Virus record (IMG/VR): IMGVR_UViG_3300030333_007612
Coordinates: 267-29,740 of that record
Origin: a virus
Strand: one strand, 5' to 3'
DNA: 29,474 nucleotides
In this document: positions 2,770 to 28,549 of the stretch, in pieces
Numbering within the stretch: the first letter of the stretch is position 1
Layout of the letters: each line of letters starts with the position of its first letter
Program-made: the position numbers and the translations under genes
Notes under the pieces: generated by a model
Seen by the model: only the letters and a program-made list of their open reading frames with translations
The model's database searches: none
What the model was told of the DNA's origin: nothing

Positions 2770-2771
2770 TT

Positions 2772-2987: not shown

Positions 2988-3027
2988 GAGGATTGTAGGC
3001 ATTATATTTCATAAAAATAGGAGATTT

Positions 3028-5798: not shown

Positions 5799-6017
5799 AT
5801 GAACTCAATATTACTACAATTATTAGACGCTAAAGTTATAGTCGACAATGAAATAAAAAGACTAGAAAAAGCGGTTAAAGAAGGCTTTGAAAGTGGAGAT
5901 GAAGTTGAAGCTGCATATCAAAATGAAATGTTGGCCGATATGAGAGTCTGCTACGATTGCTTAACTATGATCTACCAAAGATATATTCAAAAGAAAAGGG
6001 AGAAAAACAATGGATAA
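5799..6017 (+). CDS. Small helical protein of unknown function
   Basis: 72 residues, almost entirely helix-forming: MNSILLQLLDAKVIVDNEIK, then charged heptad-like segments and CYDCLTMIYQRYIQKK. The single CYDC pair is not enough for a zinc site in a monomer. AGGAG lies nine bases before the ATG, inside the integrase end, and the stop overlaps the endolysin start (ATGGATAA), so it is part of the same mRNA. No family recognised. Confidence 0.6.
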   Translation: MNSILLQLLDAKVIVDNEIKRLEKAVKEGFESGDEVEAAYQNEMLADMRVCYDCLTMIYQRYIQKKREKNNG

Positions 6018-6646: not shown

Positions 6647-7008
6647 TCACCATGTAAGCTGCGATAGCAACCTGCGTAGGCACAAGCCCATGCTTCTCCA
6701 TGTCCTCCATCAGTTGATGCGAGATGCCAAGAGATAGCGTGGGCATATTCGTGTAATAATGTTTCCAAACAAAGCTCAAGGGAATCCCTAGATACAGGTT
6801 CTTCAGGAGGATAAATAGTTATCAAAAAATGGCTACCATCTCTCTTTGTTTTTCTTAGATCACAGGATCCATAGCAGTCTTTTATTTTAGCCATTCTTAT
6901 TTTGACGGGATATGCTATGGGGATCGATTGCAATAAAATATCTAGGGCCTCTAATAAAACATTTCTTACATCCTTTTTTGTGCTGATCTGCCTCTTGCTA
7001 ATGTCCAT
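6643..7008 (-). CDS. SprT-like zinc metalloprotease domain protein
   Basis: 121 residues from the ATG at 7008, preferred over a longer reading from 7056 because AAGGG lies five bases before it. The motif TLLHEYAHAISW holds HEYAH at residues 86-90, followed by a third ligand in GHGEAW (His103), as in SprT/WSS1-like peptidases. Phages often carry such proteins; their substrates are mostly unknown. A pair of cysteines (45 and 49) precedes the active site; no C-terminal zinc ribbon is present. It is the last gene of the long minus virion block and overlaps the terminase end by 43 bp. Confidence 0.75.
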   Translation of the reverse strand: MDISKRQISTKKDVRNVLLEALDILLQSIPIAYPVKIRMAKIKDCYGSCDLRKTKRDGSHFLITIYPPEEPVSRDSLELCLETLLHEYAHAISWHLASTDGGHGEAWACAYAGCYRSLHGD

Positions 7009-8720
7009 AATTTCCCTTTCTTCTTGATCTTGGAACTGATCGTTCCTTCCCACCATTCATCAAATTCTTTCTCAGCGTTTTCTTCTCGCATCCTAGCTAC
7101 AGCCAAATCTGTCTCTGTCTGCAAAAAAGTTGGTGCGAGATGCATTACACCGTGGGCAAGAGCGTCCAATCTATCATCGTGTTTAATGCCGCCGTCTTTT
7201 TCCCCGTAACGCATCATCGCTGCTTGATACTGTAGCAGATATTCACGCGCCTTGCCGGGTTCAGAACTTTTAATAGATTTTTTATATTCTCTTTCTACAA
7301 CTTTTTTATCAATAATTAATTGGCCACTTCTAAGAACAGGCTCCAAGGATCCCGCAATTCTATCTACTTTATTCCTAGTAGCCCTAACTTCTGTAACGGT
7401 GCAAGGGTATATACTAGAAATTGTTTGTTTAAAAAGTAGCGGCCAAGCGACCATGTTATTCTCAACCAATATTTCCTTGACCTTCCACCGCTTAGCTATT
7501 TTTCCTAAGGTCTCTAGGGTTTTCTTTGAAGATCCTTCTTTAAAACCACCCGCGTCAAGTATGTATAAGGATCCGGGAACAGCACCAATAACAACAAAAG
7601 CAGTTTCGTCAGTGCCTGAATCTCCCGCAGGATCCACAGCCATTAATATTGTAGCGTATGGCAACATCTCAGATTCATCAACGAATCCCGGCCTATACCA
7701 ACTATCTCCCGGCAAGCCCAAGCATGGCAAATCATCGATCCTGTTTTCCTGAGTCTTTGAAGGGACTATTTTTATAGGAGCACCATAAGGATTAACGCCA
7801 TCCCAAACAATAAAATCATCTAAGGATAATGGGTGTGAAAGTCGATCACTGACAGAAGTAGATAGCATCATTTGGATCTGCCATTGAAGAGCTCCCATGC
7901 CTAGCTCCATCCTAGTTAAATGATCGTGATCAAATCTTTGAGGATCCGTAGGTTTACCTGTGCAATCTCCTTTGCTATACATTTCTTTGACACCATCAGC
8001 CAACCTCCCTACATATTCATCATCCGAATCAGGCACTCGAGCAGGAATATATATAGCCTCATAACCTCTAGTCCCTGTCATATCATTGTATATAGAATTT
8101 AAACTTTGGAATGTACCCAATACTACGATCTTGGAGTCAGTGTCGGGGACAAGCATCGCCTCAACATCCATCACGTTACGGAGCAAAGTCTCTCTCTGTA
8201 GTTGGGAGGCAGAGTTGTTGGCCTGCTCAGCGTCATCAAGTATGGCCTTGGTACAGCGCCTACCCTGAATAGATCCGCCAACAGACATAGCCGCGAAAGA
8301 GGCCGAATGCTGTGTTGTAGCAGGGCCTATGTCCCAAGACAATTTAGAGTCCCTCTGAGACGCGCCGGGCCTTAAGTGGTGTAGGAAGGGGAGTCGAGGG
8401 TTTTCGAGCAGTGAGCGCACCCACAGGGACGAATCCACAGACCTCTGACTAGATCCCGAAAGGATCAGGATTTGCTCATCATAATTCTGCAACAAACACC
8501 ACAGTGCATAGCAAGCTGCAAGGTAGGATTTGCCTATACCACGAAAGGCAGCAATAAAGCCACGTTGTGGGCCATACTGTAAGAACTTAGCAATCTCCCT
8601 CTGACGATCTGTAAGGGGAGGCAAGTTAATAGCTTTCCAAACGGCATCACCAAAAACTTCAAACTCAGAAAATGCCTCCCTAATGGCAAGCACTTCCGGT
8701 CCTACATTTTTATTAGTCAT
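6966..8720 (-). CDS. terL: Terminase large subunit (T7 gp19-like)
   Basis: 584 residues, close to the 586 of T7 gp19. The ATPase has Walker A AFRGIGKS at 58-65, the packaging-type SSQRSVDSSLWVRSLLE region, and Walker B AILDDAE at 159-165, with the coupling motif LGTFQS near 201. The nuclease domain carries VDPAGDSGTDE (Asp363) and KHDDRLDAL (513-521). It packages and cuts DNA concatemers at the portal. The start overlaps the stop of the upstream 77-residue gene by 8 bp and has little ribosome-site signal, so coupling is likely. Confidence 0.96.
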   Translation of the reverse strand: MTNKNVGPEVLAIREAFSEFEVFGDAVWKAINLPPLTDRQREIAKFLQYGPQRGFIAAFRGIGKSYLAACYALWCLLQNYDEQILILSGSSQRSVDSSLWVRSLLENPRLPFLHHLRPGASQRDSKLSWDIGPATTQHSASFAAMSVGGSIQGRRCTKAILDDAEQANNSASQLQRETLLRNVMDVEAMLVPDTDSKIVVLGTFQSLNSIYNDMTGTRGYEAIYIPARVPDSDDEYVGRLADGVKEMYSKGDCTGKPTDPQRFDHDHLTRMELGMGALQWQIQMMLSTSVSDRLSHPLSLDDFIVWDGVNPYGAPIKIVPSKTQENRIDDLPCLGLPGDSWYRPGFVDESEMLPYATILMAVDPAGDSGTDETAFVVIGAVPGSLYILDAGGFKEGSSKKTLETLGKIAKRWKVKEILVENNMVAWPLLFKQTISSIYPCTVTEVRATRNKVDRIAGSLEPVLRSGQLIIDKKVVEREYKKSIKSSEPGKAREYLLQYQAAMMRYGEKDGGIKHDDRLDALAHGVMHLAPTFLQTETDLAVARMREENAEKEFDEWWEGTISSKIKKKGKLWTLARGRSAQKRM

Positions 8721-9951: not shown

Positions 9952-12900
9952 CTATATTCCACTCCCGTATAACATTTTTAAATCTTGTATGGCTCTTTCT
10001 TTAGCTTGTTCAGGTCCCATAGGCATGTTTCCATATGAAGGATCCCCCTTCAAATAGGACTCTGTTTTTTCTTTAACTCTAATGTCCATATCAAGTTGAG
10101 GTATTTCGCTTCTAGTTTTTTCCCTAGCTGCTTTTAAATATTCAGAAAATATCTCACCCAATTTAGCATCTCTAGGTGATTCAAGATCATCCAATCCCAT
10201 TTCACTTAGCATTCTGTAATCAGGTTGAGTTATCTTCCAATTTAATTTTTCTTTCAGTGTTTCTGATCTACCTGTTTGTGGGTTTATCAGCTTTATTGTG
10301 CCTAAATGATACATCATTCTATCATAAGCAGTAGTTTTTCCTTTGTACTTATATTCTGTCCAATCAAGCCCTTGCTGTCTGATAGATGGCGTACTTTGAT
10401 TAGATTGTATACGGTACATCTCCATCTTAACAGGGTCATCACTTACCTCTTTGAAAGACATTGGACCTACCCAATTCTGATTAAATGGGTACATACCAAC
10501 TTGAGACTTCTTAACAGGATCACCAAACATGTCATACTTGTCCTGCAAATCATTCCTACTTAACAACCATCTCTCAGCCATGGCATCACCAATACTTCTT
10601 ATTTGCTTTAAATAATCTTGGCCGGGCAACTGTCCAACCATACCACTGTAAGGAACAAAGCCTGACGACATTCTCTGTAAGAATTGTTCTCCATATTCAT
10701 AAGGATCAGATAAGGCTTTCGATGCATTAAACATACCACTTAAATAAGACTTGTGAATAAGGTTGTTGGTTAAGGCAACAAATAATCCCTTCATCAATTC
10801 AGGTTTACCACCAAAAGCTTCTTGGTATTCTTTTATCTGAACAATATCAGCCATTAAACCATAGAAGATTGCGAATGGATCTAGCTTTTTATAGCTATAG
10901 TACTTACCGTTCTTGTAAATACTGTACTCTTGTATCCCTAAAGACTTCCAAACTTTTTGTTGATTCTTATCTATAGGACCTGAACCTGTAATTAAAGGAA
11001 GACCATCATCTGTTTCTTGACTAGCAAGACCATAAGCATGCATCATTAAAGTGATACCTGTAGCTCCACGTCCCACCAACTCAGCTCTATCTTCTTTAGA
11101 GTATGCTTTTCTAGCTTCCTTATCTGCCAACAATCTTAGTGAGTCACTAGCAAAACCTGTGGTCCTGTCTAGGTACATCTGCAATATGTTTGTAGGGGTC
11201 TTAATGAATGGGAATATAAACTTAATAACAGCATGCTCGTTACTTAAACCACTCATGGCGTTACTTATCCTAGCAACATTGGTCCTACTTAATGGATTGT
11301 ACTGAGTAAGAAAACCACTATTAGATTCACCAAAAGCATTTTCAGAATATTGAGAATTTAAAATTCCCTGATCATTAACATTTTTACTAGCGTTTCCTAT
11401 ATTAAATATACCTTTAGAAGATGCGTTAGAATCTAGTTGATTTGTAAATGTGTTTTCTTCAGCAACTCTAACAGCCTCAGCGTTAGCTCTCATAACATCT
11501 TTGTCGTAATAAGCCCTAACATTATTTCTCATAAAGTCTGAGTATTCTCTAGTGCCCGGCTCTAGATTCTGACTCTTAGCTTTAAGAGCTAGTTTTGATC
11601 GAACACTATCTATGCTGTACTGCTCTCCACTTGATCCAACCATCTCCCATTGCTTGGCTATGAAGTCTTCTTTTCTCATTTGAACCTCAGAGCTTTTAGG
11701 ATTTTCTCCAAATCTTTGATCAGCTATATCATAAATCCGTCTCCTCATTCTAGATCTATAATTCATCTGCCTCATAAATTCGTCCTCACTCATAAGCATT
11801 CTTGAAGGTACGTTAATGAAGTTTCCTATGTAATCATAGGTTTTACCCAAAGCTCCAATCCCTTTGCCGTCTTTAGTTATGTTTGGCTTTAAAGGGTTAG
11901 GCATATAATGACTAGCTCCAAATGCACTTAATTGGTTGTGACCTGCTTTACCTTCTATGGTTCCAAGATCATCAACAAGCTTAGGCCTTCCTTCTTTTAA
12001 AGCATAAGAGGCAATCTTGAACGCATCAAGGGAGGCCGCAAAGTAATACTTTAATTCTTTTAGTTCGCTTTTGGCTAAGCTAACATCAGCCTGAAGCAGT
12101 GCACCTAAAGATCTTTCAAGCCTTCTCAATACACCTGCACCAAAACCACCAACCAAGTTAGCAGTATGTGTAGACTGAAATCCTGAAAGAATATTATTCA
12201 TCCAATACTCCATTATTGCAGGAGCAAATCCAAACTTCTTAGTCTTGGGAGTAGTAGCCATAGGGTTGAATTGAAGATAAATATAATCTTGCATCAAAGA
12301 TAACCTTGCATTCTCAACACCACCAAACTCTGCATTTATATATTGAAGTGCTTGTTCGTGATCTTCTATCTTAGGTATCCACCTATCATCCATATCCGGA
12401 GTTTCACCCGAAGCTCTCTTAGCAAAACCTTCATCAACAGCGGCAAACCTGAACGAGCCTAGTGTTCGTGCAACCCTGCCCATATTTTCTCTAACCAAAC
12501 TTGAGACTTCGTAAAGAGTTTGTCTTCTACGCATAGCCTCTAAAAGTAAAGATGCATTTCCTATAAACTCACCCTTATTATTAGTGTTTGCTTCTACAAA
12601 TTCTTTAAAGTTACCCGAGACATCTAAGAGCATAGACCTCATAGCACCAACTTCATTTAATGATTTTTGTAAAGTAGCACCCTTCATTGATAGCATTTTG
12701 ACTAGGTCTTTATCATCCATGTCCATACCTAAATCATCCATCATTATCTGATACTCCTCACTAATCTTGGCTTGTTGTTGCTCTATAGATAAGTGTTCAT
12801 GCTGAGCCTCGCCATCAAAAGATCTCATAGTACCCGCATAAAAGTTATTTAAGCTATCATCATCGGATACATTATTAGGGTTAACACCCGCCATATTTGG

Positions 12901-15900
12901 ATCTTCAGCAGGGGTAGGCATCTTAGGCCTAGAATTGCTTGCCTGATAAAGAACCTCAGGTGCGTTCTTCCTGTCATCAAAGTTGTACTTCTTAGCGTTT
13001 TTAGCTAAGACTAATGGTCCAACTTGGATAACTCTCTCAGCGCTCTCAACCACTTCTTGAGTTTGTCGATCATAGAAATATGAATGTCTCTTAGGATCAA
13101 ATCCAACCTGAGTCCAAGTGTTATCTTTAGGATTTAAAGAGGAGGCCAATGCTTCTTTAGCTTCATCGTAAATAGCTTTAGGTTCTACAGTTTCGTAAGT
13201 TCCTTTTATTACAGCAAATGGAGATTTAGCTTTATCACCCATGCCAACCCTAGCCGCTTTATTCCCTTGATCAGGAAGCACAGCATTGTTAACAACAACA
13301 GCTCCGTGATAGGAAGTCTTCCTTGAACCCTGAGACTTGTAATGAACAGCAGGTATCCAAGTATTATTTCTAGTGTAAGCAGGGATGTCCAACCTTAATT
13401 CCACATTAGATCCCGAAACTATTTCAGACTCTACATCTTTAACTTGTCTTTTGTTTAACGCGGCTTCCATCTCAGAAGTAGTCGCAGGCTTAGGAACAAA
13501 AGCATATGGCCTAATAGGTTTTAGATCTGACACAACATCATTAAATTCTTTTTGCGTGATCTTATCCATAGTTCTATCCCTTACAGCATCTTCAAGATGT
13601 TTGTATGGTGTATGTCCCTTTTGTTGATAAAGAGGGGATGGTGCAGAAACTCTTCTTTGAATATCTGTTCTTTCTGAAATTTCTCCTCGCATGCCTCTAA
13701 AACCTGAGCGTGGCTCAATAAGAGTTTCACCGTATTCTACTTTATCAGGAGTTCTAAAACTCTCAGCATATTCAAAATACGCTCTACGTTGCTCATTCGG
13801 AGCGCTACGAACTTTAGGGTTTTCACGTGTACCCACCACTCCATAACCTTCGCCGTGCTCGCCACGCATCATTTTCTTATAGCCTTCTTCATTAAGTATG
13901 TAAGCATAGTCTTGATCAAGACCATCTCCTTTTGAAACTTCGCTTAATCTTTTTGTAAATGCTTCCATTGTGCCCTTGCCAAACTCAGAGTCACTACCAA
14001 AAAATAATCTCAAAACAGAGTTCTCGTCTGTTAATTTAGATTTTCCTTTATCAAAAACTTTTTTTGTCCAACCTCTACTATAGAAACGGTTTGCATTTGG
14101 GCCCTCTCCTCGCATAGTTTCTTTAGCAACATACCTTTGAAGACTATAGAGGGCTGATTCCATAAAGTTATTAATATCATCGAGCTCTTCAGAAATGCGA
14201 TTCCAAATATTGCTCTCCGAGTCTTCTGAATGTTTAAATTCTTTAAAGAAAGCAGTAAGTTTATCTCTATCCACACCAAAGTGGGCTAACAGTAATAAGT
14301 CAGTATCTTCTTTTGTTAACTTAATATTATACTTGTACACATCACCTGATTCAGAACCCGCGCTTTTGTTTGGATGCTCTAAGTTTTTAAAATATTCATA
14401 TTCAGCATCGCCTACTATGCCATTTATATTTAGAGTTAATTCATCCTCTTCACCACTCAAAACCTTTGAAAGGTGTATTCGTTGGGTATTTGGTCCATGG
14501 CTTGTTCCTACTTGAAACCTATTAGCGCCCATATGATTTTTCGCCATAACACCATAATCTCCTACCTCAGAAGGATCAGCAACTGTTCCGTCTGCCATTA
14601 ATCTACCATGCCTCATCTCTTCAGACACAAATTTTAAATCGGATTCGTCATACATATGATGTGCTGCTTCTTCTGTAAGAAAAAGATAATTCAAACCATT
14701 ATTTTCAGTTAGATCATGCACCCCTGAATAACCCATATATCTTCTAATTACCCTATCAGGCTCAGAACTATCTAATGTTTTTAATCTTCCACCATGACCT
14801 TTATCAAAAGGTACAGATTTTACTCCAACTTTTCTAGCAAACTTTAAAGCAGCCTTAGGAACCCTTATACCGTATTGAGATTTAGCTTTGTCTAAACTTA
14901 GACCTGTAACTTCTGAAGCAGGCCTCGGTGGGAAAAAGCTTATAGCATCATAACCTTCATCAGCAGCAACTTTAAACATTCTTTGCACTGCGTGTTCTAC
15001 CCAATTTTTCATAAGAGGATGCTCCTCAAACACTGTACCCCTAAGCATATTACTTGCCTCTTCGGTTAAATTACCCATCTTATCTAAACTATCCGTACCA
15101 ATTCCGGGCTTTAAGTTAAAGTCATCCAACAACATTGTTTGATACGGTTGGCTTGCTATGTTATCCCTAACGTGATTAAAGAAGAAACCCTCAAAATCAC
15201 TAATAGCATCTTTAGATTCTTTAAATGTATGATTAGCAGTTGCGGCCATGTATACCTGAGCAAAGTCCATCAAACTTGACCAATCAGTAGTCTCACCTGT
15301 CTTTATATCTTTAACCAAGGTTGTATCAAGTCTTTCATCAAACAGATCAGCGTTATCCCCTTGTACAGGTTTAAATCTAGAAGACATAACCCTTGGATCT
15401 TCTTCATCTATTCGAGCTAGGAAAAACCCAATGTCTTCAACACTATCAAATCCCCTATAAATAGAATCACGCATTTCTTCAAGCACACCCTTGAGAATAG
15501 TCCAATCTTGCATCATACGATTTTCTATTTCCTCTACTTTATTAGCCCTAGCAGATATCTCATGCTGAGAATCGTAGGCGTGAATGACAGAAATTAAATC
15601 ATTATTTGATTGTTTGGTAAGGTCTTCGTGAAACAAAATATCATAAAGTGGTCTCTTTGGCGCACCTTCGATATACTCATAATCATTAAGTGGTAAGAAT
15701 TTTTCAACCTCATCAAAGAACTTTTTATCCATCCCAAGCTCTGTTAAATAATTTCCACCTCTAGCAAACTTTCTAGGAAGATAACCTTGTTGCCTAGCAG
15801 CTAAACCCCAATCACTTTGCACTTCAAAAACAGTTAGGACTCTTCCTATACCATCAACGTATGTGTCCCCAAATCTAACATGAAACAAATTATTTGCACC

Positions 15901-18900
15901 AAAGCCGTGGTGGTGCCTAACACCTTTGTAGTGTCTCTTTTTATCTATATTTTGTTGATCTTTAAGCGTTCTAATATCTGAAATTATTTTTTTAGCATTA
16001 TCTTCATGATGACCTAAAGCCACCAAATCACTTTCACTTATAGAAGAATCTATATAGTCATTAGCACCCTTCCAATTTAAAGTTAAAACTCTGTAGTTGA
16101 AAGTGTCCCTATAACGTTTTGCCTCCTGAGGAATATTTGCTTGCCACTGTTCATCAGCCCTAGGATACATTCTTTCACTTTGAGTGTAGTCATAAATCTC
16201 AGCTAAGCCTCTCGCATCTTCAGGCATTAATTGTTCAGCTTCCTCTGACAACGGATCTCTAATATGTTTTCGAGAAAAGTTTGAAAGATCATCTTTGATA
16301 CCATCAATTCCCGAATAAGGTTCAGCACCTCGCTCAACATCTCCATACCTTGTTGTATCACCCATACCCGAATGAACTAAATACAATCTATAAGCTTCTT
16401 CAGCTATATCGTCGGCTTGCCCATCTCCCTTATCAATTAACTGAGAGTTATACCTAGTAATATTAGGCTCATCCTGAAGCCTCTTCATAAATTTTGTCAC
16501 TATCTCATGAACATCGTATTTCTTTATACTCCCATGAGGACCTCTTAGTTTTTCACTCACCTCATAAGCTAAAGCGCCTGCTTCTCGGTGTTCTATTTGA
16601 TCATTTATCAATCGTGTTAAAACTCGATACAAATCAATGGTCTGTCCTTTCTCATCGGTGTTTGTACTTCCTCCGTATATTTTTTCTTCAAGCTCAACAG
16701 GTCTGTATTTTTCTGATGCTTCTTTAATAGTAACGTCAGGGTTTTGCTCCATTAAAAAGTTCATCCCACTGAATTCCCACTCAGCTTCTTTGACACCCTT
16801 AATGGCCTTTTTAACTTGAGCCAATTTCATGTTACCTTGGTTTGTCTTTATGTACTCTTCTAATTTTTTAGGTAACATATAGAACCATTGTCTAGGCTCT
16901 GATCTATACTTAACTACTTTGTGTATTCCGTGGTACTTTGGACTATGCTTAACCACACTAGACTTTGGAGCCTGACCTTTCTTTTGAGGTAAGTAATTAG
17001 GGAGAAACCTTTGCTGCAATTTGCCGGGCGTGTAATCAAAACCTTTATGATCAGGATTAATCTTATACTCTACACCAAATATATCTGTCTTAACAGTAAC
17101 AGCACCATGAGCACTAAGCTTTGCCCAAAACCCATTATGAGCTGCTTTGTTTGCTATGTACCCACTATTCATTCCACCATGCTCAATAGCAACCCTTAAT
17201 AAAGAATGACTAACATCGCGCTCACTAGGGTCAAGAAACAATCCATACCCTTTACCATCTTTAACAGCTATGCCTGATTTGCCTGACTCACTAACAAATA
17301 ATCTTGCTCCTTCAAAACTTTCACTAACACGATCATCAAAAAATTCATTTCTGTTTTTCGTAAAGTGCATAACCGCAGCAGCTCTTTCTGAACTTAACTC
17401 AGCAATATTATGAGCAAGAATGTAATCACCTTCCTTAACAGCAGCTTTATTTGGTGCAAATAGATTGTTTACTTTCGGAGATCCATTTTTGTTTTTCTGA
17501 GCAACCCAATCAGATGGAGTATAAAAAGCTTTTTTAGATTTTCTTAACTCAGCAATATTTGACGATAAACCTCCAACTCCTCTGACGAAAGAGTTTCCCT
17601 TTCCTCGAGAAACCTTGTCACGCAATCTCGCGATGGTCGAGAAGACTGTCCATTCCCTCCACCTTCCTTGGACGTGGGCAATATGCCCCGGGTTAAGCCT
17701 TTTAGTGTACTTGTCAAATCCCTTGTCGGTTGCCTGTCTGAGCTTGTTCCCTTTGAGGATTGCGAGTAATTGGAGTCCTTCTTCGTAGATTTCTTCATTT
17801 TCTATCCATGGTCTAGTCTTGTCTGATATATATTTTAAACCCCACGCCTTACCATCGTCAAGCTTTCTTGGAGTTCCATTAGTGCTTTCTTTAAAGTATT
17901 TTTTTACTTCTTCCCATTCTTTTGCTGTTGTTTCTGCTAATTGTTGGCCACCATCCATATGGATCATAACCCCTCTGTTAGAGTTTCCGGGTTCACCTGC
18001 GCCATAAATGACACCATAGTTAGACGAATCATATCTAGTTTCCCGTATACCCTGACTGTACTCAGTACCCTGAATAAATGTTCTTAAAGTTTCATGATTT
18101 ACTTGTGACTGCTGATTAGCTATCCAAGTCTCCCAATGAAACCTACCCACAGTAGCATCATCTTGATTTCTTCCTAGCTGATCGTAAACATTTTTTACTT
18201 TAGCAGGAAGCGCAGTATTAAGAAGATCATACTGAACCATACCTATTGGACCATTAAGAGATTTGGCATATCCCTCTGTTGCCTTACCATTAGGCACACC
18301 ATACCAATTTTCAATTTGAATCCTGTCAAGTATGACTGAATCGTGGAAGCCACTAACCAATCTAGCAAAGTTTAAAAGCTTATTATCAAGTCCAACACTA
18401 GCGCCTTTAAATATTTTTGCAAAGTCCATTACAACTTTATTAGAAGATCTGTTTTTTGCAAACCAAGACTTGTAAACTTTGGAAAGAATATCCTCTCCAT
18501 TTTTCGCGGCTTCATTTACTTTAGTTAAAAAGTCTCTACCAAAACTATTGTAGTTGTGCTTAGTGCCTGTCCCTACTCTTTCAGAAGCTTGACCTTTTTC
18601 TGCTTTTTTAAATTTCCCATCACCCCAAGCAAAATATTCTTCTAAGTCAAACTTACCATCTCTTGCTAAATTGATAAACCTATCCATCTCATCAAGGCTA
18701 TCCAAGAATGCTGCTTCTTGTGTAAATGGTGTTATGCCCGCAGAAAGCTTTGACCAATAAAGAAGTCTAGCTAGATCTGTTGGGTTTTTTAAATTCTTCC
18801 CTACTTCTTTTGTTAAAGCAAGGCCATCTTCTACAGCAGCTCTTTGCTCAAAAGACAGGTTTTTTAATTTCTCAACAGCGCCTTTTCCATTATTCTTTGT

Positions 18901-21054
18901 AAGATCATCTATTAAAACCTTTGGAGCTGTAGGTGCAGAGTCTTGCCCTATATAAATATTTAAAGCTCTATCATAAGATTCTACTGAAGATAAAGGATCA
19001 AAATCAACCTTGTCTTTGCCTTTGGCTATTACAGGTAAAACTCTTCCATAGTTTCCCTCATTCAATTCCAAAGGAACTTGATCGTTCGTTTTTCTAATTA
19101 AAGTCTTATCAGCATTTTCTTTCACAAATTTCCCACTGTATTTACCCATGTTAAACTTGCCTTGAAAAAGAACATTGCCTTGAGAGTCAACATCAGGAGT
19201 CGGACTTGAACCTTCATTGATAAGTCTATTAGAATTTATGTCCTCTACATCACCCCTCTTAAACATTTTGTCAAAGATACTGTCTAATCCAAGCTCGTGA
19301 GATTTAGGCCAAGCACCTAGATCACCCATACCTTCTTTGACTCCTCCGTATATTTCGCGCATTACGCTGCTAATAATTTTAAAAGATTTACCTAGACCAC
19401 TTGTAGGGGTATCACCTTTATACATGTAAGACTCTAGAGCCCTTGCAAATATCTCTTCAGACTCCGTAGACCAAATCCAATTTCCATTAGCATCCTTCAT
19501 TGTGACACCACAAGCCTCAGCAACCTTGTCAATATCCTCAGGTGTAACACTTAAATATTTAGGACCACTTGGATCATCGGGCAACATTATCTTAGCATCA
19601 GGGTTTTCAAAAACTGTCAACCTTAATGCATGCCCCATCTCGTGAATAAATGTACTAATATCTCCCTGCTCTAAAAGATTAATAAAAACCTTTCCTATAT
19701 TTCCTCTAGCGTCTACATCATATTCTGTATAACCTTTTACCTCATCAGCCTCTGCTTGTGCAAGAGCTTTGTCACCTCTCCTTGATCTAAACAATGCATT
19801 GTCCACATCTACTCCAACTTTACTTAGATCTAAACCTGTAGCGTTTTTAAGAGTTACAAGGGCAAGCCATTCATCATATTTAAAGCCCGATGCTTTTTCT
19901 GCCAAGATATTTATCTCGTCTGTTATATCAAACTTTTGACCTTTATTATCAAATCCAAATTTTTTGTCTACCCCATTTACCCACCTATGAGTAGCCCTAG
20001 ATAACTTGCTAAGTATGCTAAACGTAGCGTCAAATATAGGACCTAAAGCTGCACCCTCTAAAGCATTTTTTAACATACCTGATAGAACAGTGTCATTCAT
20101 GTCAGCCTTTAACCATTCAGTCCATTCATTCTCAGGAACACCTAATTCTAAAAGAAAGTCAGTCAATCGTCCTTCATAAGGATTAAATGTTGCATCAGCA
20201 ACAGCACCCGCCGCCATAATCTTTGAGTAATTTTTACCCCTTAGTAATATTCTTTCACCTATACCCAAGACACTTCTGTTATTAAAAAGGCTTGCTTGAG
20301 GAGAATATCTAGGGACATATTTTAGTTTACCTAAAGCACCAACAAAAGGAGCGGCAAAGTCAACAATAGTCTGAGCCATAGCGGCCACAGGAGCTTCAGG
20401 TCTTGCAGGGGTTTTATAAGAAGCGTTAGGGCCAAATCCTTGATCTCCCCAAGTTGCAAGCCAACGAACAGAATTAGCAAGAGCAGCGGTAGCTGTGGCA
20501 CCTGCATTTTCAGGATTAACAGCGTAGTTGTATAGCCAACTATCTTGATCGTGCAAGACTTCTTTTCTAGTCATAAACCTCTCAGTGCCATCATCATTTT
20601 TAACTATAAATTCACTAGCACCTCCTTGTTGTACAGAACCGGGAGTAGCACCTCTAACAGATTGTTCACCTTGCTTAGCAGCTTCAATATCATCCCCGTA
20701 TCTTTCAATTAAAGAGTTATATCTAGATAATCTTGCTGCTTGCATTGCTCCGTAAGCAAAAGCCCCTACACCCTTAACACCATGCTCTATAGCTCGAGGA
20801 GCCATAAGAACTATATCTTCAGGTCTACCTATAACCTCTTTAGCCATACTCATTTGGCCACCTAATGCTTGGGGTCCAAAGATCCCATCTTCACCCAAGT
20901 ATTCTTGACTAGCGTCATCTATTGCTTCAAATGCTTCTTGAGTAGAACCAAGCCTAACCTTATCTCCCGGGAATGATCGATATCTTCCTCGAGATTTCTT
21001 TTTCTTCTCAGGGTCTTGTTCGTCTCCAAAGTCTCTGTCAAAATTGTAAACCAT
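9952..21054 (-). CDS. Giant polyvalent virion protein in the gp16 position
   Basis: Uninterrupted 3700-codon frame, filling over a third of the window. Visible modules in order: (1) residues about 286-345, ADATFNPYEGRL and MLKNALEGAALG, a motif shared by many phage structural proteins; (2) a metallopeptidase with HEMGH at 471-475 and EEIFARALE at 533-541; (3) a PRQWFYML...GVKEAEWEFSGM segment near 1400-1431; (4) FEVQSDW at 1743-1749 with W2018...EGYD, the paired EiQSDW/AaeeGYD motif of polyvalent proteins; (5) WTQVGFDPKRHSYFYDR at 2647-2663 and GPLVLAKN; (6) MSEDEFMRQMNYRSR at 3088 and FIFPFIKTPTN from 3279, like the LPD38-type C-terminal module. It directly follows the gp15-like gene, so ejection into the host is likely. 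No transglycosylase domain as in T7 gp16 is visible. Confidence 0.85.
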   Translation of the reverse strand: MVYNFDRDFGDEQDPEKKKKSRGRYRSFPGDKVRLGSTQEAFEAIDDASQEYLGEDGIFGPQALGGQMSMAKEVIGRPEDIVLMAPRAIEHGVKGVGAFAYGAMQAARLSRYNSLIERYGDDIEAAKQGEQSVRGATPGSVQQGGASEFIVKNDDGTERFMTRKEVLHDQDSWLYNYAVNPENAGATATAALANSVRWLATWGDQGFGPNASYKTPARPEAPVAAMAQTIVDFAAPFVGALGKLKYVPRYSPQASLFNNRSVLGIGERILLRGKNYSKIMAAGAVADATFNPYEGRLTDFLLELGVPENEWTEWLKADMNDTVLSGMLKNALEGAALGPIFDATFSILSKLSRATHRWVNGVDKKFGFDNKGQKFDITDEINILAEKASGFKYDEWLALVTLKNATGLDLSKVGVDVDNALFRSRRGDKALAQAEADEVKGYTEYDVDARGNIGKVFINLLEQGDISTFIHEMGHALRLTVFENPDAKIMLPDDPSGPKYLSVTPEDIDKVAEACGVTMKDANGNWIWSTESEEIFARALESYMYKGDTPTSGLGKSFKIISSVMREIYGGVKEGMGDLGAWPKSHELGLDSIFDKMFKRGDVEDINSNRLINEGSSPTPDVDSQGNVLFQGKFNMGKYSGKFVKENADKTLIRKTNDQVPLELNEGNYGRVLPVIAKGKDKVDFDPLSSVESYDRALNIYIGQDSAPTAPKVLIDDLTKNNGKGAVEKLKNLSFEQRAAVEDGLALTKEVGKNLKNPTDLARLLYWSKLSAGITPFTQEAAFLDSLDEMDRFINLARDGKFDLEEYFAWGDGKFKKAEKGQASERVGTGTKHNYNSFGRDFLTKVNEAAKNGEDILSKVYKSWFAKNRSSNKVVMDFAKIFKGASVGLDNKLLNFARLVSGFHDSVILDRIQIENWYGVPNGKATEGYAKSLNGPIGMVQYDLLNTALPAKVKNVYDQLGRNQDDATVGRFHWETWIANQQSQVNHETLRTFIQGTEYSQGIRETRYDSSNYGVIYGAGEPGNSNRGVMIHMDGGQQLAETTAKEWEEVKKYFKESTNGTPRKLDDGKAWGLKYISDKTRPWIENEEIYEEGLQLLAILKGNKLRQATDKGFDKYTKRLNPGHIAHVQGRWREWTVFSTIARLRDKVSRGKGNSFVRGVGGLSSNIAELRKSKKAFYTPSDWVAQKNKNGSPKVNNLFAPNKAAVKEGDYILAHNIAELSSERAAAVMHFTKNRNEFFDDRVSESFEGARLFVSESGKSGIAVKDGKGYGLFLDPSERDVSHSLLRVAIEHGGMNSGYIANKAAHNGFWAKLSAHGAVTVKTDIFGVEYKINPDHKGFDYTPGKLQQRFLPNYLPQKKGQAPKSSVVKHSPKYHGIHKVVKYRSEPRQWFYMLPKKLEEYIKTNQGNMKLAQVKKAIKGVKEAEWEFSGMNFLMEQNPDVTIKEASEKYRPVELEEKIYGGSTNTDEKGQTIDLYRVLTRLINDQIEHREAGALAYEVSEKLRGPHGSIKKYDVHEIVTKFMKRLQDEPNITRYNSQLIDKGDGQADDIAEEAYRLYLVHSGMGDTTRYGDVERGAEPYSGIDGIKDDLSNFSRKHIRDPLSEEAEQLMPEDARGLAEIYDYTQSERMYPRADEQWQANIPQEAKRYRDTFNYRVLTLNWKGANDYIDSSISESDLVALGHHEDNAKKIISDIRTLKDQQNIDKKRHYKGVRHHHGFGANNLFHVRFGDTYVDGIGRVLTVFEVQSDWGLAARQQGYLPRKFARGGNYLTELGMDKKFFDEVEKFLPLNDYEYIEGAPKRPLYDILFHEDLTKQSNNDLISVIHAYDSQHEISARANKVEEIENRMMQDWTILKGVLEEMRDSIYRGFDSVEDIGFFLARIDEEDPRVMSSRFKPVQGDNADLFDERLDTTLVKDIKTGETTDWSSLMDFAQVYMAATANHTFKESKDAISDFEGFFFNHVRDNIASQPYQTMLLDDFNLKPGIGTDSLDKMGNLTEEASNMLRGTVFEEHPLMKNWVEHAVQRMFKVAADEGYDAISFFPPRPASEVTGLSLDKAKSQYGIRVPKAALKFARKVGVKSVPFDKGHGGRLKTLDSSEPDRVIRRYMGYSGVHDLTENNGLNYLFLTEEAAHHMYDESDLKFVSEEMRHGRLMADGTVADPSEVGDYGVMAKNHMGANRFQVGTSHGPNTQRIHLSKVLSGEEDELTLNINGIVGDAEYEYFKNLEHPNKSAGSESGDVYKYNIKLTKEDTDLLLLAHFGVDRDKLTAFFKEFKHSEDSESNIWNRISEELDDINNFMESALYSLQRYVAKETMRGEGPNANRFYSRGWTKKVFDKGKSKLTDENSVLRLFFGSDSEFGKGTMEAFTKRLSEVSKGDGLDQDYAYILNEEGYKKMMRGEHGEGYGVVGTRENPKVRSAPNEQRRAYFEYAESFRTPDKVEYGETLIEPRSGFRGMRGEISERTDIQRRVSAPSPLYQQKGHTPYKHLEDAVRDRTMDKITQKEFNDVVSDLKPIRPYAFVPKPATTSEMEAALNKRQVKDVESEIVSGSNVELRLDIPAYTRNNTWIPAVHYKSQGSRKTSYHGAVVVNNAVLPDQGNKAARVGMGDKAKSPFAVIKGTYETVEPKAIYDEAKEALASSLNPKDNTWTQVGFDPKRHSYFYDRQTQEVVESAERVIQVGPLVLAKNAKKYNFDDRKNAPEVLYQASNSRPKMPTPAEDPNMAGVNPNNVSDDDSLNNFYAGTMRSFDGEAQHEHLSIEQQQAKISEEYQIMMDDLGMDMDDKDLVKMLSMKGATLQKSLNEVGAMRSMLLDVSGNFKEFVEANTNNKGEFIGNASLLLEAMRRRQTLYEVSSLVRENMGRVARTLGSFRFAAVDEGFAKRASGETPDMDDRWIPKIEDHEQALQYINAEFGGVENARLSLMQDYIYLQFNPMATTPKTKKFGFAPAIMEYWMNNILSGFQSTHTANLVGGFGAGVLRRLERSLGALLQADVSLAKSELKELKYYFAASLDAFKIASYALKEGRPKLVDDLGTIEGKAGHNQLSAFGASHYMPNPLKPNITKDGKGIGALGKTYDYIGNFINVPSRMLMSEDEFMRQMNYRSRMRRRIYDIADQRFGENPKSSEVQMRKEDFIAKQWEMVGSSGEQYSIDSVRSKLALKAKSQNLEPGTREYSDFMRNNVRAYYDKDVMRANAEAVRVAEENTFTNQLDSNASSKGIFNIGNASKNVNDQGILNSQYSENAFGESNSGFLTQYNPLSRTNVARISNAMSGLSNEHAVIKFIFPFIKTPTNILQMYLDRTTGFASDSLRLLADKEARKAYSKEDRAELVGRGATGITLMMHAYGLASQETDDGLPLITGSGPIDKNQQKVWKSLGIQEYSIYKNGKYYSYKKLDPFAIFYGLMADIVQIKEYQEAFGGKPELMKGLFVALTNNLIHKSYLSGMFNASKALSDPYEYGEQFLQRMSSGFVPYSGMVGQLPGQDYLKQIRSIGDAMAERWLLSRNDLQDKYDMFGDPVKKSQVGMYPFNQNWVGPMSFKEVSDDPVKMEMYRIQSNQSTPSIRQQGLDWTEYKYKGKTTAYDRMMYHLGTIKLINPQTGRSETLKEKLNWKITQPDYRMLSEMGLDDLESPRDAKLGEIFSEYLKAAREKTRSEIPQLDMDIRVKEKTESYLKGDPSYGNMPMGPEQAKERAIQDLKMLYGSGI

Positions 21055-21056: not shown

Positions 21057-24000
21057 TTATTCTTCTTCTGTAGTAGTAGTAGGTATTTCGTAAAATCTAA
21101 GCTTGGCTAAAGCATTTTGTTTTTCTTCTAATTCTTGAATTGCAGTAAGGCCATCTTCCTCTCCGTCTCTCTCTAATCTGTTTTGCACACTAGGAGGCAA
21201 TGCATCATATACATCCTCCCAAGTTTGGCCCTCTTGTGGAAACATTAAGAACCTTGTAGGATCAAAAAAGTCAGCATTCAAATGGTAGTCACTCCCCATA
21301 AAACTAATTTTATTTGCAGCTATTTCCTCTATAGTCAAACTAGTTTGCCTTACGTCCGTAGTCACATCACCATTATTATTTAAACCCGACATCTTGGCCA
21401 TAACAGCAACTCTTCTATTATTCCTAACTGTCATACTTCCAAAATTTAACTTTGCAAATTTAGACAACTTTCCTTGAGCCTCAATAAATTCAGCTTTTGT
21501 TGTGTCATATCTAGCTTTCTTTTCTTTATACAAAGGATCTGATTCGTCAAAAAATTCTGCCTTTTCCATCTCAAGCATTTCTTGTGAATTTCTTAAAAAG
21601 TCAGAGTCGGAAACAAAGTTACCTGTTTCACTAGGATTTAAAAATTTAACAACCTCTAAAATGTTACCTGCCTGCTCGAAATCAGCTTGAACCATAAAAT
21701 CCAATGTCATGCTTTGAAAACCTTGCATCTGCTGATTAATATTTTTTTCTCTTATATTCTTATCCATATTGGCTAATGAATGCCTATGTCTCTCTGTAGG
21801 GCTTAACATGTTCCACTCAATCGTACCCGGTTGTGCCCAATTACTACCAATAGGTTGTATATCATTTTCATTTATTGGATTATCATCATACTCAGGATAA
21901 GTCATAGTATTGGCATTCCCATATGTACCCAAACCCCAATAAGCTTTGCTGTAATCATTACCTTCTACTACACTTTCAGGTTTATGATCAAGCTCAGGGA
22001 ACCTAGCAATAATTTCTTCTTTAGTTTTTAAAGTGTCTAGTTGTCTAACGACCTCTTCAAATCTTTCAGCGGGAGCCAAGTGAGAATACTCCAAAGCAAG
22101 TTTGTTGAATATATATGTTGCCTCGTATGCAAAATTCTTAAGTTCCACAGCATTATTCCTAAGTCCTGTTATTTGCCTTCTCTCCCCATCAATTTCAGCA
22201 AAGCCTAAATTAGCCTGAAGCTCATTAGCGTAGTTATTTAGCCTCATTTCATACTGATTATTTTGTTGCAGATCCGCAAAGACATCAAACTCATCGTAGT
22301 CAGGATTTGCGCTTGTTATTTGTTGATCAACATTTTTCTGCAATATAACCTCAGTCTCTTCTTTTACAGTATTTTCTATCCACTCCAACAACAAACTAGG
22401 ATCTTGCAAAAGCTTTGGATCTTGGGAAGATCTTATAGCCACAGTGGTTTGCCAATCATTCCAAATCTTTGTCCATAAATTTCTATCAATATTTGTATTT
22501 TTAGTACCCCTAAGCGTATTAATTCTTTCTCTTGCTAAATCTAAAAACTTATCTAGCGGCATAGCCTTGTTGCTAAACACAGAAACTCCGTTCCTTCTTA
22601 TTGTTTTAAGATTTTCCATTTGCTCTTGACTTAAACCTAGTGTACTAAAATACCTTACCAATTCTTGATCAGTCATGGCGGTATCACTCTGATCTAATGC
22701 AGCGCTAATACCTACTTGGTAAGCATCCTTTTCGGTGTTCATTAAAAAATCCTGAGCCCTCTTAGATTCTTCTAAATACAATGCCCTCATAAAAGCTTTC
22801 TCATCGTCCCAATTTTTTTTCTTGTCAACAAGATCGTCTTTAATACCTACCTCCTGCCTTACACTATCCCAAACACTTTTAAAATTATCAAAAGCTGTTT
22901 CAAATCCCATGGTACTTGCTTCTTGAAAAAACCTACCACTAGATTCTTTCATTCTATTTTTAACCAACATTTTTTTGTTTTGATCTTCCTCAAAAGAGCT
23001 TAATTGTGCTTGCTGAGAATAATCATTAATGGCTTGTATCCAAACATCCTGATCAGTAGGTGTTATATAGCTACCCCAATTTTTTCTATTAGGCCCATCA
23101 ACAACAGTCATTAACTGCTTATAAAGCTCAACACCTCTATCTTTAATGTTTTTAATCTGCTCTTGAGTTTTAAAAGTTCCATCCGGATTCCGAAGTTCTA
23201 TTTGAGCTTTAATTAATTGTGTCAAAGAATCCAATGTAGGCTTCATACCACTTTCTCTAGTTACGTCATGCAACTCTGAAAGATTTTGTGTTAGTAAATC
23301 CATATCCAATTCAGATTTTGGATCTCTTAAAAAATGTCCGAGTTGGTTCCTAATGGCAGTACCTGAAGCATCTACTGTGTTTTGCTTTTGAGTGGCCTCT
23401 CTTTGAGAAAGACTTTTTTGTGTAAAGTGTTGAACTACCTGAGCTGAGTGTTTGTCATAGGAAGCACCGGCATAAAGACCTGTAGGCCTCATCTGAAGTA
23501 CAACGTCATTGATTTTAAGTTGGACATCTCCACGCGAATTATTAGGATCAGAAAGAAAGTCTTTCAATTCATCACTATTTAACGCATCATATAGATCGCC
23601 TGTAGCAACTGTTTGCCCAAGCATCTCTTCTATAAACACATGCCTCCAAGGATTATCTGCCGCAAAAGTAGGATCTTTTAATTCCCTTTCTAAATATTCT
23701 TTTTGAGACATACTTTTCCTGTCTCGAATATTACCTCCTGAACCAACACTTCTTAATAGAGTTCCATCTTCAGCTATATGAGCATGGTTTTCTTCTGCCC
23801 AAGCATTAGCTTCTTTTTCAGTTTTAAACAAAGGATAGTTTTTGCTTTTTAAAAATTCTTCAACTCCCTTATCGTTTAAACTTTGGCCACCTTCCATAGT
23901 GGGCACAACTGCAAAACCACCTTCTACACCAACTGTACTTAACATAACATTAGACTTAGTGCCGTCTGCGTTCTTAAGTGTTGGAAAACTACCTTTATAT

Positions 24001-24245
24001 CCTGTAAAGTTATTGATCGGCCTAGTAGACTTCCACTCCTCCTGCATATCTTGAAGCTTTTGTTGCTTATACTTTTGCCCATGCATCTCAGCGACTTTCC
24101 ATAAAGTTGGAGAAAGTTCAGCCAAAGCTTTATAAGTTTTATATTTAGAAGTTTCAAGGGGAGCTTGGTATGTATCAGCGGCAGCCTTTGCTGTAGGGGT
24201 AAAACCTACAGGTCCCATATTTCCAATTTGCTTTCTTTTCGTCAT
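21057..24245 (-). CDS. Internal virion protein C (T7 gp15-like), enlarged
   Basis: 1062 residues, against 747 for T7 gp15. The start overlaps the gp14-like stop as ATGA. Residues 30-72 (ETSKYKTYKALAELSPTLWK) and the region from about 200 (NPWRHVFIEEMLGQTVATGD) match the pattern of gp15-like ejection proteins of podoviruses; long helical stretches follow to the acidic TTTEEE end. Residues about 85-154 interrupt this with an unrelated-looking module, TVGVEGGFAVVPTMEGG...FKTEKEANAWAEENH, which I recognise as a recurrent small module of other phage proteins. It should be ejected to form part of the trans-envelope channel. Strong support from position. Confidence 0.85.
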   Translation of the reverse strand: MTKRKQIGNMGPVGFTPTAKAAADTYQAPLETSKYKTYKALAELSPTLWKVAEMHGQKYKQQKLQDMQEEWKSTRPINNFTGYKGSFPTLKNADGTKSNVMLSTVGVEGGFAVVPTMEGGQSLNDKGVEEFLKSKNYPLFKTEKEANAWAEENHAHIAEDGTLLRSVGSGGNIRDRKSMSQKEYLERELKDPTFAADNPWRHVFIEEMLGQTVATGDLYDALNSDELKDFLSDPNNSRGDVQLKINDVVLQMRPTGLYAGASYDKHSAQVVQHFTQKSLSQREATQKQNTVDASGTAIRNQLGHFLRDPKSELDMDLLTQNLSELHDVTRESGMKPTLDSLTQLIKAQIELRNPDGTFKTQEQIKNIKDRGVELYKQLMTVVDGPNRKNWGSYITPTDQDVWIQAINDYSQQAQLSSFEEDQNKKMLVKNRMKESSGRFFQEASTMGFETAFDNFKSVWDSVRQEVGIKDDLVDKKKNWDDEKAFMRALYLEESKRAQDFLMNTEKDAYQVGISAALDQSDTAMTDQELVRYFSTLGLSQEQMENLKTIRRNGVSVFSNKAMPLDKFLDLARERINTLRGTKNTNIDRNLWTKIWNDWQTTVAIRSSQDPKLLQDPSLLLEWIENTVKEETEVILQKNVDQQITSANPDYDEFDVFADLQQNNQYEMRLNNYANELQANLGFAEIDGERRQITGLRNNAVELKNFAYEATYIFNKLALEYSHLAPAERFEEVVRQLDTLKTKEEIIARFPELDHKPESVVEGNDYSKAYWGLGTYGNANTMTYPEYDDNPINENDIQPIGSNWAQPGTIEWNMLSPTERHRHSLANMDKNIREKNINQQMQGFQSMTLDFMVQADFEQAGNILEVVKFLNPSETGNFVSDSDFLRNSQEMLEMEKAEFFDESDPLYKEKKARYDTTKAEFIEAQGKLSKFAKLNFGSMTVRNNRRVAVMAKMSGLNNNGDVTTDVRQTSLTIEEIAANKISFMGSDYHLNADFFDPTRFLMFPQEGQTWEDVYDALPPSVQNRLERDGEEDGLTAIQELEEKQNALAKLRFYEIPTTTTEEE

Positions 24246-24790
24246 ATCTTTAATCCAAATGGGTTAGAGAAAATACTTGTTTCTGCAACGTCATAATAAC
24301 CTGCCTGACCACCCATCATATGAGCACCTAATGCGCTTTGAGCCAAACCTATATTTAATTGACCACTAGTTACAGCCTTAGACTTCAATTCATTCATTCT
24401 ATTTTTTGTTTGTTCGACTGCGTCTTCTTCGTCAAAATCTAATTGTTGTATACCATAAGCGGTCTGTGTTCTAATAGAAGATTCTTGTCTACCTATCAAT
24501 CTACCATACTCTAAGAACGTATCATCTTTTGCGCCTCCACCTGCGCCACCTTCTAAACCACTAAGAACTACTTCCGAAGAAGCAGAGTCTGCTCTTTCTA
24601 AGAGATCATTTATTTTACTCTCTGCTGCCATCATTCGTTGATGCCTAGCTCTAGCTAGTGCTTCACGTTGCCTATTCAAAGACCTACTTGCACTATCTAT
24701 ACCTTGCTGAACCGCTTTATTAGTTTCTTTTGCTTGGCCAATTTGCCCCATTGCTTGCATGCCAAACATCGCTGCGGGAACACTACACAT
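24242..24790 (-). CDS. Internal virion protein B (T7 gp14-like)
   Basis: 182 residues, near the 196 of T7 gp14. The N-terminus has small hydrophobic residues (MCSVPAAMFGMQAMGQIGQA), then a long amphipathic helix with SASRSLNRQREALARARHQR and a GGAGGGAKD hinge, then QTKNRMNELKSKAVTSGQ and a Gly/Ala-rich end. This is the usual composition of gp14-like ejection proteins, which insert in the outer membrane. GGAGG lies eight bases before the ATG, which overlaps the previous stop by 8 bp. Assigned largely by order and composition. Confidence 0.8.
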   Translation of the reverse strand: MCSVPAAMFGMQAMGQIGQAKETNKAVQQGIDSASRSLNRQREALARARHQRMMAAESKINDLLERADSASSEVVLSGLEGGAGGGAKDDTFLEYGRLIGRQESSIRTQTAYGIQQLDFDEEDAVEQTKNRMNELKSKAVTSGQLNIGLAQSALGAHMMGGQAGYYDVAETSIFSNPFGLKI

Positions 24791-25250
24791 TTGTAAAACC
24801 TCCTATCATATCAAACTTATAAAAACTACCTCCTGTTGGAGTTATATAAACAGAATCTGTCTGTATGGTAAAACCGATCCTTTGAAGCCATTCTATAGAG
24901 GGAGAACCTTCCCAAACATAGTTTGACAAATAATTATACTTTGCTTTCCAACCCTCTAAAACTTTTAGTGCAAATTTGTGGAAAGCTACAGGGTACTTAG
25001 AAACTTCTTCAGTACCTAAAAACCAAGGGCAACCAACATCTTCTTTAACTTCAGGACAACCTGCTATACCCAAAAGAGAGTTCTTGTGCCTTAAACTTAA
25101 AAAGGAATCAGACATGTCCCTCCGTTGTTCATCAAAAACATCCGCCAAGTCTCTCCCCGGATGCATATACTTAACCTCTTGAGCGTCGTGAGGCCTAATC
25201 CTTAAGGCCATCTCCAAACAATCGTATCCTGTAGTCTCAGTCAACATCAT
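24783..25250 (-). CDS. Internal virion protein A (T7 gp13-like, GNAT-like fold)
   Basis: 155 residues. It contains GIAGCPEVKEDVGCPWFLGT, followed by a helix and SPSIEWLQRIGFTI, the pattern of gp13-like proteins that resemble a degenerate acetyltransferase. Part of the internal core or assembly machinery. ATG at 25250 shares a base with the nozzle gene stop (TAATG); a second Met codon follows directly. The canonical Q/R-x-x-G-x-G/A acetyl-CoA loop is not evident, so enzyme activity is doubtful. Confidence 0.82.
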   Translation of the reverse strand: MMLTETTGYDCLEMALRIRPHDAQEVKYMHPGRDLADVFDEQRRDMSDSFLSLRHKNSLLGIAGCPEVKEDVGCPWFLGTEEVSKYPVAFHKFALKVLEGWKAKYNYLSNYVWEGSPSIEWLQRIGFTIQTDSVYITPTGGSFYKFDMIGGFTNV

Positions 25251-28200: not shown

Positions 28201-28549
28201 CATCCGCAACTATGGGGACCTCTGTCCCCGCAGCAATAGTAGACTCTGCTACAGAGTTGTAATAATCTTTTAGTAAAAATGCTTTAGCAAATACAGCACT
28301 ACTTGTGTCTCTGTAAAACCATATTCCATATTGTTCATCAGGTGATCTTTTAATCACATGAAAGTAACCATTAGTCGTACTGTTTTGAACAATATCAGCT
28401 AAATGTTGAGTAGGATTTCTTTTATCTAAACCATGCACTATATCAGGGTAAGCATTTATAGACTCTTCAGCCATGTTGTCTAACCTAATACTTTCAGGTT
28501 GTTGACTAACACCGCCAAGAAAATTGCCTACTGATCTACTGATTGCCAT
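25250..28549 (-). CDS. Tail tubular protein B / nozzle (T7 gp12-like)
   Basis: 1099 residues, longer than T7 gp12 (794). The N-terminus SVGNFLGGVSQQPESIRLDN, then EESINAYPDIVHGLDKRNPT, is diagnostic of the gp12 nozzle family. The middle contains beta-rich segments, including YRGRLGLMSGINFIMSEAAG and ILFSEHTQFLLSSGGDTLSS, the family's conserved core. The C-terminus has SNEYVCDLVNDSPYPTRFVT, again typical, so the extra length lies in insertions, mostly before residue 600. It forms the distal tail tube through which DNA leaves. Start shares a base with the adaptor stop (TAATG). Confidence 0.95.
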   Translation of the reverse strand: MAISRSVGNFLGGVSQQPESIRLDNMAEESINAYPDIVHGLDKRNPTQHLADIVQNSTTNGYFHVIKRSPDEQYGIWFYRDTSSAVFAKAFLLKDYYNSVAESTIAAGTEVPIVADDLAAVATSDFTTYFVTTGQKVQFRDDDFEALTVADTTFLLNRNRVTALSTTPQDKHEDDIATIQITQGIAKASYRITIDGVEYFYTTRAAGEASGTISGLNADETRTRYIANRLMYGGYNEHLGPVDTAVEAGWDNSASDPVTSVMQGASGQDQQKKALGIIQSGKGTHFIHTESSSRTGMDSDYSTIASDSDPSINHRKWRLYGDITKWQDGLDGSTPNKTKFKLGVEYYDSTSKDWKVAETDFINFGKDITGGYTTIAADIETKLRALDDSGEHSIVVGSSMAGLSCAVVSNKWWGMEITADFDQSSDTEIRNIYVTDSEYEPPAGEACYAARRTHSSITVMKFVGGLTTAGEPDEEQYAGRAMTIKVEDDGGGQFMALAHKSALTFEEIPSVALDGQMIKIMGSPANDEDDYYLKFVADIDASEDYRNEGSCWGQWFGKGVWEESTPNKNRLSFDATTMPQVMLSKISSGSSTDPATSVVANGAPYFHLKTQDWDANAVGDSLTNKTPSFVGNTISGITYYRGRLGLMSGINFIMSEAAGPYNFWKTSVASKRATDRFDITGRSEKVSVFNHAVEVNKNLILFSEHTQFLLSSGGDTLSSSTVGLQLLSSYESLVGAKPRSAGFSVYFPYFKNAYSGIHRLYPAGGAADLFKAEDIAEQVPKYIKGKVTDITVSDQEKIMLVLTEDADTLYVYKWADMGNKRVQSAWFKWTVGPTTITQGSDTYGSIRGCHIIDSKIYLLVTRAQNNTTKTNHVYLEEIDIEKGVVDIASTVATDDVWYVSRLDRRLASEDVSLSGGGTTVTFPGQYYLPGGTKVELVYRHGVSGQVGGFREVATVAGASTDYSNQVVFSSNHTGKKFYIGLPYTMRHTLSAPSIKTQQGTLVTGRIQVRRAWVDVANSGYFKTEVTPTGRSLNTDHHPSADVGLGATSEITANEKAYTIPISSRSNEYVCDLVNDSPYPTRFVTLEYEATYNSRSRRFG

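Follow-up and report, generated by a model that had tools for sequence, protein, structure and literature searches.

The locus analysed here raises the question of what a gene of 3700 codons does at the place of gene 16 in a short-tailed, T7-like phage. The window, a stretch of 29,474 nucleotides, corresponds to positions 267 to 29740 of a viral record of 36,412 bases. Since the ends of this record overlap by about 370 bases, near-identical around an N run, the near-complete 36.4-kb contig probably represents a complete phage genome, and about 30% of it is taken up by this single gene.

The gene and its operon

The gene on the minus strand starts with ATG and runs through 3700 codons without an internal stop or an N, an uninterrupted frame of 11.1 kb that is far beyond chance expectation. 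A preliminary description made from the sequence had called the gene intact and nearly three times the size of T7 gp16, and this agrees with our count (2.8 times the 1318 residues of T7 gp16). All of the motifs reported there were located as well, with HEMGH at residue 471, EVQSDW at 1744, GYD at 2034, WTQVGFDP at 2647 and RHSYFYD at 2656, and the modules that carry them have independent homologues. The coordinates of all features are given in Table 1.

Table 1. Features of the gp16-position gene and its neighbours in the window
Feature	Residues	Window position	Strand	Evidence
Whole gene, 3700-aa putative gp16-position ejection protein with polyvalent insert	1-3700	9952..21054	-	frame and synteny
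N-terminal chassis (hydrophobic segments ~223-241 and ~331-349)	206-358	19981..20439	-	BLASTP, iterated profile, hydropathy
Cargo bay	~359-2724	12883..19980	-	between the two chassis parts; gap sizes in relatives
Zincin-like metallopeptidase (HEMGH 471-475, window 19630-19644; third ligand E534)	405-640	19135..19842	-	BLASTP, alignment
DNA-glycosylase-like domain (HhH, OGG2/AGOG-like; K892, window 18379-18381; D910, window 18325-18327)	665-1098	17761..19062	-	AF2 model, Foldseek, Pfam, profile comparison
Orphan stretch	1111-1640	16135..17724	-	no relatives found
EVQSDW...GYD module (tentative GNAT-like fold)	1653-2043	14926..16098	-	loci, alignment, model
Orphan stretch	2111-2480	13615..14724	-	no relatives found
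QVGFDP/RHSYFYD module	2487-2688	12991..13596	-	phrog_586; weak Phage_L5_gp82 match
C-terminal chassis	2725-3700	9955..12882	-	phrog_6651 5e-35, BLASTP, iterated profile
Tail adaptor (gp11-like)		28549..29190	-	PF17212 1.7e-29
Tail nozzle (gp12-like), 1099 aa, enlarged		25250..28549	-	PF25675 2e-156
gp13-like protein		24783..25250	-	phrog_308 2e-28
gp14-like ejection protein		24242..24790	-	PF24072 1.3e-9
1062-aa gene in gp15 position		21057..24245	-	position only
T7-type terminase large subunit		6966..8720	-	PF22530 1e-24; tblastn to 2535 phage records

The order of genes on the same strand is T7-like and comprises the adaptor, the nozzle, a gp13-like gene, gp14, a gene of 1062 aa, the 3700-residue gene, a holin-like gene and a T7-type terminase. 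A gp15-like gene had been described in front of the giant gene. The 1062-aa gene indeed holds this position, but its identity as gp15 is positional, as we found neither a family match nor a BLAST match to the gp15-position proteins of relatives; near its N-terminal third it carries a stretch of the form GYKGSFPTL...NADG...LSTVG. The nozzle protein is longer than its counterparts in relatives (784-814 aa), with about 200-250 extra residues around positions 230-480. No tail-fibre gene was recognised behind the gp16-position gene or elsewhere in the lists of open reading frames (ORFs); therefore, this nozzle insert may be a receptor-binding part.

Searches with the whole 3700-residue protein or overlapping slices against Pfam, PHROGs, NCBIfam and PADLOC returned only phrog_6651, phrog_9880 and weak matches. 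Matches to POL2_thumb and ExoX were sub-threshold and were dismissed. Sequence searches of the PDB with the whole protein and with four module alignments gave nothing credible, and single-sequence scans of viral contigs with both protein ends found no close relative.

A split chassis and the bay between its parts

Both ends of the protein align with proteins in the gp16 position of marine T7-like phages. In BLASTP, residues ~206-353 matched the N-terminal region of these proteins (in HTVC200P, CRP-114, CRP-227 and jiawei), and residues ~2738-3669 matched their C-terminal 750-950 residues. Homologues of these two parts, termed the chassis here, include P-SSP7 gp16, Syn5 gp45 and proteins of pelagiphages and roseophages. 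Iterated profiles of the N- and C-terminal parts both matched P-SSP7 gp16 (1.9e-5 and 1.5e-61, respectively) as well as Syn5 gp45 (4e-14 and 2e-86), and the C-terminus falls into the ejection-protein family phrog_6651, annotated as 'internal virion protein'. These comparisons support an assignment to the gp16-position ejection proteins of the marine T7-like (marine Autographiviridae) lineage. Two earlier proposals have to be revised accordingly. Gp16 had been thought to be replaced by a polyvalent protein, whereas the two ends of this protein are those of the gp16-position family, with the polyvalent modules lying as an insert between them. Moreover, the C-terminus had been called LPD38-like, but it belongs to the phrog_6651 family; LPD38 gave no match in the protein at E<=10, and a search with PF18857 was empty too, its controls being silent as well.

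No similarity to T7 gp16 itself was detected with either chassis part, as hhalign against 18 T7-type sequences was not significant and the profiles gave no match. Homology to T7 gp16 by sequence is therefore not supported, and comparison of the chassis with the PDB was also negative. Because of this lack of detectable chassis homology, the ejection reading is based on synteny and on relatives among the cyanophages, in which gp16 was in turn assigned by synteny and size. P-SSP7 has been counted among the phages with gp16-like ejection proteins, which are reported at 609-1337 aa, and its inner core reportedly disappears upon attachment, when a tube is seen in the envelope (PMC8954989).

The position in the operon, and the ejection role implied by it, are shared with T7 gp16, which has an N-terminal SLT transglycosylase and is 2.8-fold smaller. 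Family searches with the whole 3700-residue protein and with slices found no such N-terminal SLT domain. The preliminary description was thus correct on this absence. It had further read the peptidase and the other modules as standing in for the transglycosylase; no SLT domain was found in the gp16-position proteins of the relatives scanned either, and therefore no swap of transglycosylase for peptidase took place. The sole SLT match in the whole record is a small ORF on the opposite strand (window 6010-6429; Destabilase 2.5e-10, SLT 1.8e-5), a candidate endolysin.

The closest known counterpart is thus the internal virion protein D of marine T7-like phages (P-SSP7 gp16, Syn5 gp45, HTVC200P, CRP-114, CRP-227), which shares both chassis ends, the gene position and, in those scanned, the lack of a transglycosylase. 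These proteins typically have 1100-1400 aa with a gap of ~270-500 residues between the chassis parts, in contrast to 3700 aa with ~2370 residues inserted here. We scanned viral contigs with the C-terminal chassis and considered the best 80 loci of more, which are not a random sample. Both chassis parts were present in 61 proteins from these loci; the gap ranged from ~270 to 2600 residues with a median of 511, and the largest one is that of the 3700-residue protein.

Among the same best 80 loci the peptidase was found in 12 bays, including the one described here. In three of the bays (L021, L065 and L066) the QVGFDP module precedes the peptidase, whereas in the 3700-residue protein it follows by ~1900 residues. 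The nearest relative in architecture is a protein of 2666 aa (L017, 4217-12211) with the peptidase and then the glycosylase-like domain, in the same order. Its bay also holds a class I methyltransferase-like stretch (Methyltransf_23, 1.3e-4), and a similar stretch was seen in the bay of L022. The four cargo modules are also combined variously in other large phage proteins that lack the chassis. Recurring modules, with other contents or another order in relatives, are expected of a modular bay, and the sequences are consistent with the gp16-position bay being one. That a polyvalent, multi-module protein lies in the ejection operon, as had been suggested before, is borne out by several disparate modules in a neighbourhood of virion genes. 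While polyvalent proteins and the mosaicism of gp16 are already known, the split chassis with a measured and reshuffled bay in the gp16 position and the extreme size of this protein are new as far as our searches reach.

Modules of the bay

The peptidase module has homologues at 31 loci, and its catalytic residues are kept in the alignment. Alignment with these homologues places a Glu at residue 534, downstream of HEMGH, in agreement with the metallopeptidase that had been proposed from the motif. The resulting HEXXH...E arrangement equals that described for polyvalent proteins in the survey by Iyer et al. 2017 (PMC5512222).

The next module was assigned by its predicted structure. An AlphaFold2 model of residues 400-1110 had a mean pLDDT of 74, with much of the helical core at 90 or above. 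Foldseek with this model found the OGG2 8-oxoguanine DNA glycosylase 3n0u (E 4.2e-4, probability 1.00, TM (target) 0.64) and AGOG 7ou3 (probability 0.93). Pfam Ogg-HhH was matched by 3 of 46 family members with a best E of 0.0025; the 3700-residue protein itself gave no Ogg-HhH match and the curated cut-off was not reached. For a profile comparison, we used a motif to retrieve OGG2 genes of archaea and bacteria from public genomes. The motif GxDNK...LDR of the phage family was in register with the OGG2 motif GxGxK...LDR, and the comparison scored 25.0; 100 column shuffles gave a mean of 14.7 and reached at most 21.9. Asp910, which lies outside the DNA search motif, is kept in 107 of 107 sequences; Lys892 is kept in 108 of 108, a conservation that is partly built in because the DNA motif that collected most members contained DNK. 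Residues 665-1098 hence look like an 8-oxoguanine DNA glycosylase with a predicted HhH-GPD fold and a retained Lys/Asp pair. OGG2 and AGOG (3n0u, 7ou3; PF22175) have this predicted fold in common with the phage domain and their catalytic Lys and Asp align with it, but sequence identity is very low and the protein itself is without a Pfam match.

Within the cargo-bay reading, the same residues could belong to another DNA enzyme of the HhH superfamily, for instance a phage thymine-hypermodification transferase, as PUGT 8z2n and a phage 'amino acid:DNA transferase' are among the weak fold matches. We regard this as unlikely, since OGG2/AGOG 8-oxoguanine glycosylases give the best fold and Pfam signals and have a Lys...Asp pair with which that of the phage domain aligns. 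For the domain read as glycosylase-like, ~113 matching stretches were found in other phage contigs. None of its structural relatives in BFVD is annotated as a glycosylase, the best being 'uncharacterized' or named for other domains. Furthermore, the excerpts of the survey of polyvalent proteins (PMC5512222) do not mention a glycosylase domain, and our literature search found no virion-borne phage glycosylase. Within the range of these searches, the DNA-glycosylase-like domain is widespread in phages, new and apparently unannotated.

The EVQSDW...GYD module occurs at 119 loci, most of which were collected with the EVQSDW DNA motif. Its model reached a pLDDT of 67 and the top Foldseek matches were mostly spermidine acetyltransferases, all with E of at least 0.12, so that we tentatively describe the module as GNAT-like. 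The QVGFDP module was found in 21 further stretches. Aligning the EVQSDW and QVGFDP regions together left the invariant columns out of register, so this alignment was set aside; no support was found for an acetyltransferase-like stretch near residue 1251. Large central parts of the protein had been described as unrecognised. This no longer applies to residues 665-1098, but it does to residues 1111-1640 and 2111-2480, about 900 residues of the bay without relatives in family and viral contig searches.

Proposed delivery and comparison with known systems

Enzyme modules lie inside a protein of an ejected type; therefore, enzymes in finished form probably enter the cell along with the genome. Judged from the sequence and from analogy, we consider it probable that this is an inner-core (ejection) protein in the gp16 position of a T7-like phage, with a middle part that serves as a cargo bay for the delivery of pre-made enzymes. 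The chassis would pack the protein into the inner core and, on adsorption, lead it out through the tail ahead of the DNA. The modules would follow partly unfolded, regain their fold in the cell and be active ahead of all phage gene expression. The peptidase would most likely cut the cargo free or trim a precursor; for injected multi-domain proteins, both cut and uncut, there are precedents or proposals (PMC5512222). The glycosylase-like domain would most likely have as its substrate a damaged or modified base, either in the incoming DNA or in that of the host, be it for the repair of oxidised phage DNA or for action on modified host or defence-related DNA, and the data favour neither. PADLOC gave no match with the 3700-residue protein, and the disabling of defences that had been proposed is therefore one option among several. 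That 3700 residues must thread a narrow tail counts against delivery, but the virion RNA polymerase of N4 (~3500 aa) may serve as a precedent. The wider proposal, that marine T7-like gp16 proteins hold an evolvable cargo bay for injecting ready-made enzymes and that a widespread, undescribed virion-borne DNA glycosylase acts on incoming or host DNA at entry, is made tentatively and falls somewhat short of probable.

The insert might instead be structural or regulatory, filling the core, ordering the ejectosome or being trimmed by the peptidase in assembly, without acting as an enzyme in the new host. The long stretches without assignment and the several enlarged genes in the virion module would fit this, as would P1 DdrB, which is cleaved before packaging (PMC5512222). 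Nevertheless, both the peptidase and the glycosylase-like domain have retained their catalytic residues, and the same modules recur in giant proteins of other phages without the chassis, which makes this explanation improbable. Even less credit is due to the idea that the protein has its main role in the producing cell or lysogen, in superinfection exclusion or late host takeover, rather than after ejection. The phage does carry an integrase-like gene (window 4999-5796, plus strand), and a role against superinfection has been proposed for polyvalent proteins (PMC5512222); against this, the protein still has its gp16 chassis, and its gene is flanked by the gp15-position gene on one side and the lysis and terminase genes on the other. 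An assembly artefact that joined genes of different phages in one ORF can practically be dismissed: the contig is a scaffold with N runs elsewhere, but the gene contains no N, its GC3 is fairly uniform, its frame is uninterrupted, and L017 has the same order of chassis, peptidase and glycosylase-like domain.

If the cargo-bay reading is true, it would join the literature on the T7-type ejectosome to that on polyvalent injected effectors. The conserved chassis would provide marker sequences for reading off the cargo of any such phage, and would define a place at which cargo could be deleted or swapped in a cultured relative. A glycosylase-like module in more than 100 phage proteins would suggest that base-excision enzymes are brought in with phage DNA, for its repair or to act on modified DNA.

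As in the 3700-residue protein, disparate modules including a zincin peptidase are combined in one protein near virion genes in the polyvalent proteins surveyed before (Iyer et al. 2017, PMC5512222). It differs from these in that its modules sit within a split gp16 chassis, none of the LPD families was recognised and it has a glycosylase-like domain, which the excerpts of that survey do not mention. The virion RNA polymerase of N4/DEV (gp50) is a third ejection protein of ~3500 aa with the enzyme between N- and C-terminal parts, and it is still delivered (PMC12633501). The likeness, an enzyme in the middle of a giant ejection protein, would be one of architecture; the 3700-residue protein has other enzymes, and no RNA polymerase domain was found in it. 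Carin1 gp32 (2854 aa) and the giant proteins of Ab9 (2839 aa), HU1 (2062 aa) and PfDIW6 (2039 aa) share the operon position and the peptidase module but match neither chassis profile. LPD22 occurs in Carin1, together with PBECR5, and in PfDIW6, in contrast to the 3700-residue protein with no recognised LPD family.

By eye, the ORF lists of this phage contain no T7-type RNA polymerase or DNA polymerase, and a DnaB-like helicase was seen; a T7-type virion module thus appears joined to a temperate-looking replication set. Genes of 2000-3100 aa in the same position, with the peptidase and without a chassis-profile match, were seen at five loci (L009, L010, L011, L012 and L014, that is Carin1, PfDIW6, HU1, LS06-2018-MD07 and Ab9); four of them are labelled hypothetical, and the one of LS06-2018-MD07 is labelled 'methyltransferase'.
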